The notes under the pieces are model-generated. The model did not search any database and was not told the DNA's origin. It saw only the letters and a list, made by a program, of their open reading frames with translations. Positions 37,285 through 40,010 of a stretch of DNA of 64,000 bases are shown here, piece by piece (the stretch's first letter is position 1; the number at the start of each line of letters is the position of its first letter). The stretch is from Eximiradius sp. (GTDB lineage: Bacteria; Bacteroidota; Ignavibacteria; Kapaibacteriales; UBA2268), in NCBI GenBank assembly GCA_937127445.1, contig CAKZLY010000015.1, forward strand, positions 62,001 to 126,000, in the 5' to 3' direction. Both the position numbers and the translations under genes were made by a program.

Positions 37285-39693
37285 TTACATTTGAATTTTA
37301 AATCCAAGATAGACATTTCGTTCGGCTGCTGGGAAGAATTCTTTGCCTTCACCACTTGCAGCATAGAGTTTATTGAAAAGGTTGTAGACACTTGCACGAA
37401 GTTCAATTGAGTTTAGTCCTAAAACTCTGCGGAAAGTGTAAGATAAATCCAAATTATAAATATTGTATGCATCCACAACATTATCAGTGTAATAATCCCA
37501 GTCAAGGTGTTTACGAATGTCTTCGTTAGTTTTAAGCATATCATCGAAATTATCTGTTCTGAATTCACCAACATATTTGCTCAAAAGCGACAAGTAGAAA
37601 TCGCCAACTTGATAAGTTAAACGTAGATTACCTAAGACATCAGGAAAACCAGCAATACGATTATCTTTGAGCGATACAACTGCGCCATGGTCGGTTAGAA
37701 AGTCGTAATCAACAATATAATTTTTGCTTAATGTTAAATTGCCTGAAATATCAAGTTTACCAAATGGTATGTCAAAAACGTTAACTGATGATTGTAGTTC
37801 AATGCCGAAGTGACGAGTACGCGGGGCATTACCGTCAATTGGATTGCCGAAAATATCTAATTTCCCACTTTTAACAAATTCGTTGAAATGCTCCATCCAA
37901 TAAGCGTTTAAGTTGAAAAAGTATTTATCTGTTCTGAAATTGTAGCCAAGCTCAAAATTCAGCATAGATTCAGGTTTGATAATAGGTTGAGAGAAATCGT
38001 ATCTAACGGTGCCATCTGGCATTTTCTCACCTTTGAAAAGTGGCTTTTTCCCTGAATAGCTGCTGCTTGCGTCGTAGAGATTTTTCATTCGAGGTTCACG
38101 AGAAGTATAAGCAACAAAAGAATAAATATTTGATTTGTCATCTAAATTATAATTCACACCAAGACGAGGATTAACAAAGAAATAATGGATATTGAATAAA
38201 TCATCTCCATTTCCAACAGTGTCTCCGTTGGTGTTTATATATTTAGTAAAGTTAATTCCGGCTTTTTCGTTAGTAATTCTATATGAATGAAGCACTGCTT
38301 GGATTTCACCTGTAAAAATCAACTTATCAGAAACATTATGTTCTTCTCTTGCAAAGAATGAAAAAATATCACGTTCTCCATTATATGAATAAAATTTGTA
38401 ATCAGGATTGAAGTTTTGGGGTAAGTTTTCAGCATAGCGTATTTTCCCCCAATGCTCTGAACGATGAATACGAACTTCCCCACCCAATGTGAGCAAACCA
38501 TTGTCGTGCTGCAATTGTAAGCGAGGTATCCACCCGCCTTGTCTATTATATACGAATGCGCGTATTATTGGATTTTCAGGGTCCTTGATATCTGCTGGGA
38601 AACCATTTTCGGGTGTAAGCCTGAACATTTTTTTGTTCATCCAACCAGTCCCATCAAAATCAAAGAAACCTTTGCCGGAATAGAAAAATAATGTCGATTT
38701 TAGAGTTACGTTGTCGCTAATTTTCCAATCGTTTAGCATTTCGTAGTGTGGCTGTGAGAAATTTTCAATTTCCTGTTTTCTACGGACAGTAATCCAGGAA
38801 ATGTTTTCGCCCGTAGAATCATACATCCAGAAATTATAGTTATGGCGGCGGAGATCTTTGTCTTTTATATAAGATTTTGGTAGTCCATTATAAGCCAAGC
38901 CATCGGCAAAAGGTCCTCCGAAAATATTGATTTGCGTAGTTAAATTGCCATCGAAGCGAGCAAAACCGAGAAAATATCCATCAAGCCGTGCCCACGAAAC
39001 ATCGCGATAACCGAAAGAATTAATTCGCGAAAGACGCGCATAAATGGCATATTTACCATCTATAATACCAGATGAAGCTTGAATAGAATATTTGCTCGTA
39101 TTTTGTTCGTAATTATCACCAAATTGCTGTAGACCAGCACCTGTTTCCAAGGTTGCACCTGGCTGAACAGTAAAATTAGAGGTTTCGAGGTTAATGCTTC
39201 CACCTATTGCAGGGAAGCCATAATTAGACAATCCGGCACCACGTTGAACTTGGATGTTATCGATACTTGAAGCAATATCTGGGAAATTAATCCAATACAT
39301 ATTATGGTCCTCTGGGTCGTTTTGTGGGACCCCGTTGATAAGCACTGCAATACGCCTTTGGTTGAAGCCACGCATAGTTAAATTCGAATATCCAACACCT
39401 GCCCCACTTTCTGAGAAAGCGATTATGGAAGGAAGTTCTGAAAGTATTATCGGCAAGTCTTTAACGGTATGCCTTCGTTCGACCTCCGAAACAGTAATCT
39501 GAGCAAATGGGACGGGACTGCGTCGCTCCTCTGCCCTGTTTGTAGAAATTGTAATACTTGGTGTTTTGAAAGCACGGAGTGAATCGCGGCTTTCTGCTAA
39601 TTCTGCCGAAGCAAAAGAATAATTCAACACAATAAGTGCGATTAAACAATAAAACTTTCCCATCTTGAAAAGCCCTTTGTTAAAGTTAAACAT
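37285..39693 (-). CDS. TonB-dependent receptor, probably for thiamine or a thiamine precursor
   Basis: 802 residues. The plug domain (about residues 50-170) has TVKDLPIILSELPSI, NLTMRGFNQRRIAVLINGVP and IDNIQVQRGAG. A 22-strand-type barrel follows, ending NVYLGFKIQM. Two starts are possible: 39693, and 39663 (MGKFYCLIALIVL), which alone would give a compact signal peptide. The riboswitch expression platform reaches exactly the region before 39693, favouring it as the regulated start. Because it is placed behind a TPP riboswitch, its ligand is inferred to be thiamine, TPP or a precursor. No inner-membrane thiamine transporter gene is adjacent. Confidence 0.9.
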   Translation of the reverse strand: MFNFNKGLFKMGKFYCLIALIVLNYSFASAELAESRDSLRAFKTPSITISTNRAEERRSPVPFAQITVSEVERRHTVKDLPIILSELPSIIAFSESGAGVGYSNLTMRGFNQRRIAVLINGVPQNDPEDHNMYWINFPDIASSIDNIQVQRGAGLSNYGFPAIGGSINLETSNFTVQPGATLETGAGLQQFGDNYEQNTSKYSIQASSGIIDGKYAIYARLSRINSFGYRDVSWARLDGYFLGFARFDGNLTTQINIFGGPFADGLAYNGLPKSYIKDKDLRRHNYNFWMYDSTGENISWITVRRKQEIENFSQPHYEMLNDWKISDNVTLKSTLFFYSGKGFFDFDGTGWMNKKMFRLTPENGFPADIKDPENPIIRAFVYNRQGGWIPRLQLQHDNGLLTLGGEVRIHRSEHWGKIRYAENLPQNFNPDYKFYSYNGERDIFSFFAREEHNVSDKLIFTGEIQAVLHSYRITNEKAGINFTKYINTNGDTVGNGDDLFNIHYFFVNPRLGVNYNLDDKSNIYSFVAYTSREPRMKNLYDASSSYSGKKPLFKGEKMPDGTVRYDFSQPIIKPESMLNFELGYNFRTDKYFFNLNAYWMEHFNEFVKSGKLDIFGNPIDGNAPRTRHFGIELQSSVNVFDIPFGKLDISGNLTLSKNYIVDYDFLTDHGAVVSLKDNRIAGFPDVLGNLRLTYQVGDFYLSLLSKYVGEFRTDNFDDMLKTNEDIRKHLDWDYYTDNVVDAYNIYNLDLSYTFRRVLGLNSIELRASVYNLFNKLYAASGEGKEFFPAAERNVYLGFKIQM

Positions 39694-39695
39694 AA

Positions 39696-39742
39696 GCTTT
39701 TCCGATGGAGAACAAATTTGAGAGAAACTCGGGGAAGAAGCC
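39696..39742 (-). promoter_or_regulatory. Riboswitch expression platform (translational ON/OFF hairpins)
   Basis: On the minus strand GGCTTCTTCC (39742-39733) can pair with GGAAAAGC (39703-39696), leaving one bulged C and covering the purine-rich site 3-10 nt before the start codon. Between them lies GAGTTTCTCTCA (39730-39719), complementary to the aptamer core segment TGAGAGAAAACTC (39804-39792) with one bulged A. The two pairings cross and so exclude each other. Confidence 0.6.
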
Positions 39743-39750
39743 TTTGCGGT

Positions 39751-39837
39751 TTCCGTTTCCCTACGCCGGTATTATCCGGATCAGGTTCAAGGAGTTTTCT
39801 CTCAGCCAATACTATTGTATTAGCACCTCCAACGGAA
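39751..39837 (-). promoter_or_regulatory. TPP riboswitch (THI element)
   Basis: The minus strand reads all conserved THI-box blocks in order. They are GGAGGTGC, the GGCTGAGA core, the CCTTGAACCTGATCC block, a GGATAATACC loop, and CCGGCGTAGGGA. P1 is TTCCGTT (39837-39831) with AACGGAA (39757-39751). The aptamer ends 57 nt before the TonB receptor start. Thiamine pyrophosphate binding is well established for this element. Confidence 0.95.
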
Positions 39838-40010
39838 TATTAGTTTTAAAACGAATAAGCAACAAAAATATTATTCATTTGAACAAAAAAATGATTAATA
39901 AATGAATTCGTCATAAGTAATAGTGGAAATTATAAAGTAGTGGTTGATTTTTCTTTCAAATGCAAGAAAAAATACCTAATTTTGTAGGTTTTAAAATTAT
40001 CATTTGATAA

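Follow-up and report, generated by a model that had tools for sequence, protein, structure and literature searches.

A likely translational TPP-OFF riboswitch that encloses the start codon of a TonB-dependent receptor gene in an order-wide conserved hairpin

Overall, by our analysis, the window (the whole 64,000-nucleotide stretch of DNA) very likely contains a translational TPP-OFF riboswitch ahead of a thiamine-scavenging TonB-dependent receptor gene. The ON helix, or antisequestor, joins strands a and a′ with a second helix, A-A′, nested inside it, and the two overlap P1/P2 and the aptamer core. The OFF helix, or sequestor, is a hairpin at the start site, in which GAAAAGC and GCUUUUC form seven pairs and, beyond a small internal loop, CCAUC pairs with GAUGG over the AUG at 39663. 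Because strand a′ is common to both, sequestor and antisequestor are mutually exclusive. The sequestor hairpin has a folding energy of -19.6 kcal/mol against a shuffle mean of -8.0 (P 0.005). The elements of the proposed switch are collected in Table 1.

Table 1. Positions in the window of the aptamer, the pairing strands and the gene under control.
Element	Position	Strand	Basis
Candidate leader promoter TATTTTTG, matching the Bacteroidota -7 element TAnnTTTG	39863..39870	-	motif, weak in the window
TPP riboswitch aptamer (RF00059)	39741..39840	-	cmscan, 80.8 bits
Strand a, P1/P2 5′ strand UUCCGUUGGAG, common to the aptamer and the anti-aptamer helix	39827..39837	-	pairs with 39710-39700
Strand A, aptamer core UGAGAGAAAACUC	39792..39804	-	pairs with A′, probability 0.96-0.98 in free RNA
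Strand A′ GAGUUUCUCUCA, predicted to nucleate the anti-aptamer rod	39719..39730	-	duplex energy, length series
Strand a′ CUCCAUCGGAA, switching strand, partner strand a or the start site	39700..39710	-	folding, conservation
Sequestor 5′ arm CCAUC-G-GAAAAGC	39696..39708	-	hairpin energy; probability 0.98-1.00 with the aptamer locked
Sequestor 3′ arm GCUUUUC-AA-GAUGG, including the start codon, strand GCUUUUCAAGAUGG	39660..39673	-	swap test
Most likely receptor start codon, AUG	39661..39663	-	homologous to relatives' starts; N-terminal length
TonB-dependent receptor, probably for thiamine, 792 aa (802 aa from 39693)	37285..39663	-	PF07715, PF00593

The aptamer is complete. The cmscan match to RF00059 (80.8 bits, E 2.2e-14, against a gathering score of 54.3) is full-length, covering model positions 1-105 with the conserved core present, and bears out the earlier note, which had placed a TPP aptamer at 39751-39837 on the minus strand. 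No other Rfam family reached its gathering score within the window, and the genome (2.45 Mb, 99% complete) has a single RF00059 match. Given the conserved core, the aptamer is predicted to bind TPP. One genome elsewhere in the order (L076, G062:C71:85211-85318 and 86359-86466) has two TPP aptamers on one strand, separated by about 1.1 kb; other genomes of the order have one. Of 37 genera, 21 have the TAnnTTTG element ahead of the aptamer, compared with a mean of 1.9 and a maximum of 6 in shuffles. In the relatives its spacing is nearly fixed, mostly 12-17 nt ahead of the P1 region, which suggests that transcription starts near the 5′ edge of the aptamer; the window's copy lies about 20 nt farther upstream than in most of them.

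The gene directly under the aptamer leader encodes a receptor with a plug (PF07715) and a barrel (PF00593) domain. Its two nearest named relatives, from metagenome assemblies labelled "Ignavibacteria bacterium" and "Bacteroidetes bacterium", are 93% and 92% identical, and its NCBIfam matches are to TonB receptors only, all far under cut-off. Judging by the genomic context, the substrate is probably thiamine or a relative of it. The start codon had previously been set at 39693, a choice that we rejected on leader homology and receptor N-terminal length. Codon 39693 sits in the hairpin loop at a position that is not homologous, and in homologous leaders the start follows the hairpin, a position that corresponds to 39663 in the window. 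In L008, from another genus, the hairpin reads GGAAAAGUC...GGACUUUUC-AG-AUG with no in-frame start ahead of this AUG, and the window equivalent of that AUG is 39663. Counted from 39663, 34 residues precede the PS(I/V)TV motif, which is the median of 62 relatives, compared with 44 from 39693. Therefore, initiation most likely occurs at 39663, a position that appears to be conserved in the relatives, whose start codons were picked by hand among in-frame candidates and not blind.

The AUG of the window gene itself lies in the sequestor, and a clear Shine-Dalgarno sequence is absent there. The assembly contains no 16S rRNA that would give the host's own anti-Shine-Dalgarno sequence; the 16S ends of family and order relatives read CCUCCUUU. 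GGAG or GAGG precedes 11 of 38 starts (window ORFs of at least 150 aa) versus 3.9% of all ATGs, which indicates that Shine-Dalgarno use is partial in this genome. In several relatives, a GAGG or GGAG in the 3′ arm faces the CUCC of a′, so that in those leaders the hairpin would cover a Shine-Dalgarno sequence.

The arrangement extends well beyond the window. A TPP riboswitch was matched in 45 of 54 family genomes and 109 of 123 order genomes, and orthologous receptors lie downstream of the aptamer throughout the family, with 53-88 nt between the aptamer and the receptor start in family loci with readable flanks (n=42; the distance is longer in L047). Complementarity was assessed on one representative leader per genus with shuffled controls and Fisher combination; about a dozen order-level leaders with an unclear start codon or 5′ strand were omitted. 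The start-site hairpin reached a shuffle P < 0.05 in 27 of 37 genera (Fisher 1.4e-25), leaving 10 without a significant hairpin, and a-a′ did so in 23 of 37 (Fisher 3.6e-22); these Fisher values overstate independence, since the genera are related. The a′ strand of the relatives resembles CUCC-A-CGGA and lies about 35 nt ahead of the start codon.

The swap test is less affected by relatedness and is conservative, because swapped arms of related genera still pair. Sequestor arms paired with their own partners at -13.71 kcal/mol compared with -8.09 kcal/mol when swapped, and the value for own partners was not reached in any of 20,000 permutations (P <= 5e-5). For a-a′ the corresponding values were -13.14 and -11.43 kcal/mol (P <= 5e-5), an effect that is weaker because strand a is conserved. 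The hairpin arms vary from GAAAAGC/GCUUUUC in the window to CGGAUAGUU/AACUAUUCG in g22 and GGACGC/GCGUCC in f2, with GAGCAUCGCGA/UCGUGAUGCUC in f3 and CCUCCACACG/CGUGUGGAGG in f5 among further genera. By this comparison of sequences, the pairing is kept while the sequence changes; that is, the arms covary. The hairpin loop (39695-39676 on the minus strand in the window) often has (U)UGUUUAA(C/U) across genera and is more conserved than the stem.

Folding was carried out with ViennaRNA, in which TPP and the tertiary contacts of the aptamer lie outside the model and locking of the aptamer is imposed as a constraint. Under that constraint the sequestor dominates, and the AUG at 39663 is about 0% unpaired. 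In a series of increasing transcript lengths, P1 had a probability of 0.94-0.97 until A′ started to emerge; A-A′ then rose to 0.98 with P1 at 0, followed by a-a′ at 0.9-1.0. Both helices form before the 3′ arm of the sequestor exists, and from this order the nascent RNA should, without TPP, enter the anti-aptamer rod with the start open. The full TPP-free leader is near energetic balance: a-a′ ranged from 0.03 to 0.92 by choice of 3′ end, and the unpaired fraction of the AUG at 39663 ranged from 0.04 to 0.91 by the 3′ end folded. Because thermodynamics alone gives no clear ON state, we infer kinetic control; the ON state is probably reached co-transcriptionally, which is the step of the model that is least secure.

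Taken together, we propose the following putative mechanism. Without TPP, A′ would invade the aptamer core during transcription, and the resulting rod would extend into a-a′, dismantling P1 and P2. As a-a′ would then occupy the 5′ arm of the start hairpin, the AUG at 39663 would be exposed and the receptor made. With TPP, which in the window RNA is expected to lock the aptamer, strands a and A would be held in the aptamer, and a′ together with GAAAAGC would pair with GCUUUUCAAGAUGG, hiding the start codon.

The earlier note had already described a translational switch, and its mutually exclusive helices and its closing of the start by TPP are retained here, in a leader that has no intrinsic terminator. 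Two of the three parts of its wiring were wrong. The part that held is A-A′, which pairs where it had been placed (-15.7 kcal/mol, shuffle P 0.01). A role as an anti-aptamer element is plausible, but its complementarity reached a shuffle P < 0.05 in only 4 of 34 genera (Fisher 0.013). The helix of 39837-39827 with 39710-39700 and the hairpin of 39708-39696 with 39673-39660 had been missed.

Several other readings were weighed against the start-codon switch. The same hairpin might be used differently, with the AUG 39693 in its loop serving as an additional or the main start, or as a constitutive structure that merely lowers translation. Some equilibrium-fold lengths do keep the start hairpin without TPP, and L007, L033 and L035 likewise have an in-frame AUG in this region. 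However, an in-frame AUG is missing from the loop in most relatives, and the strong conservation of the competing a-a′ would be unexpected for a constitutive hairpin, so that we consider this reading unlikely. More doubtful still is transcriptional control, in which TPP would cause transcription to terminate in the leader, ahead of the receptor gene. An intrinsic terminator does follow the aptamer in six of the seven leaders sampled in other families of the class, and E. coli TPP riboswitches also act on the mRNA level (PMC11487190). However, the window leader has no intrinsic terminator between the aptamer and the gene (longest T run, 4), and only 5 of 66 order leaders contain weak terminator-like sites, most of which consist of the sequestor itself with U residues behind it. 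Control is best supported at the level of translation; Rho-dependent termination or mRNA decay may come in as a secondary effect, and secondary effects on the mRNA are possible as in E. coli tbpA (PMC11487190).

There is very little chance that, with TPP, the start at 39693 is closed by B-B′ (39742-39733 with 39703-39696), the OFF helix of the earlier note, since its complementarity (eight pairs, 4+4 around a bulged C, -6.0 kcal/mol), although real and kept in two near-identical sister species, has a partition-function probability of 0.000-0.001 with the aptamer free or locked, passes in 2 of 34 genera (Fisher 0.54, not above chance) and concerns a start that is not homologous. Homologous leaders conserve the aptamer and lose the B/B′ complementarity, an outcome that the earlier note had itself named as speaking against the helix. 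With folding and conservation both against it, we rejected B-B′ as the OFF helix. A better partner for B′ is GCUUUUC at 39673-39667, with which it forms the perfect seven-pair helix of the sequestor.

The logic of the start-codon switch combines the known anti-P1 and sequestor/antisequestor types, and the finding therefore belongs to a known kind. In E. coli tbpA (thiBPQ), TPP stabilizes P1 and represses translation, whereas in the absence of TPP the aptamer is disrupted by an anti-P1 stem and the initiation site lies open, a decision made co-transcriptionally (PMC11487190). The switch proposed for the window shares this anti-P1 logic and its parts with tbpA (PMC11487190). In contrast to tbpA, the regulated gene encodes an outer-membrane receptor, strand a′ would alternate directly between the P1/P2 5′ strand and the start-codon strand, and the sequestor holds the start codon itself with no clear Shine-Dalgarno sequence. 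In the generic sequestor/antisequestor platform with OFF logic, the ligand disrupts the antisequestor and the sequestor hairpin forms (PMC2258182); the model for the window follows the same logic, and its novelty lies in which strands take part and in their conservation across the order. The same type of gene is regulated in Bacteroides thetaiotaomicron, where a TPP riboswitch precedes the TonB-dependent thiamine receptor OMthi (BT2390); the OMthi transcript is unresponsive to thiamine, and the mode of action in Bacteroidetes has been called uncertain (PMC5613172). An unresponsive transcript is compatible with translational control. Our literature search found nothing specific on riboswitches in Ignavibacteria and no description of the conserved platform of the window.

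Neighbouring lineages appear to use the same aptamer with another output. In the same class, leaders of families f11, f12 and f17 (L097, L099, L106, L116, L117 and L118) have a GCCGUU...AACGGC-U(n) intrinsic terminator after the TPP aptamer, and their AACGGC strand can pair with the 5′ strand of P1 or with a local copy of it. Where these leaders have a terminator hairpin and a U run, the window has a hairpin over the start codon, which means that neighbouring lineages differ in their mode of output. One may speculate, and we lean slightly against rather than for it, that the output of the same TPP aptamer has changed within one class (a sequestor in the order, and in the sampled sisters a terminator with AACGGC alternating between P1 and the terminator), while some thiS leaders in the phylum apparently share start-codon switching. 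If true, this would be a widespread translation switch centred on the start codon in bacteria for which Shine-Dalgarno pairing matters little. As a separate observation, thiS-like leaders from other classes of the phylum (L092, L095, L100, L104 and L111) carry CCAUUCCUAAAGU, which is complementary to ACUUUAGG, the 5′ strand of the aptamer, as well as to GGAAUGG surrounding the likely AUG start, in an arrangement as in the window.

The host is likely a thiamine auxotroph, judging by its gene content. ThiC, ThiE (TMP-TENI) and the PnuC/PnuT family have no match in the genome, which thus offers no PnuC-family candidate for an inner-membrane thiamine transporter. A match to thiamine pyrophosphokinase is present, and together with the absence of ThiC and ThiE this suggests that thiamine scavenging is under feedback control: thiamine is probably taken up and then phosphorylated in the cell to TPP, which would in turn shut off the gene of the outer-membrane receptor. 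Our analysis corrects both the wiring and the start codon of the regulated receptor gene. The order-wide covariation makes the prediction strong enough for a test by one compensatory mutation pair, and the start-codon switch would offer a translational mechanism that is both concrete and testable for the TPP riboswitches of a phylum in which their mode of action has been called uncertain (PMC5613172).
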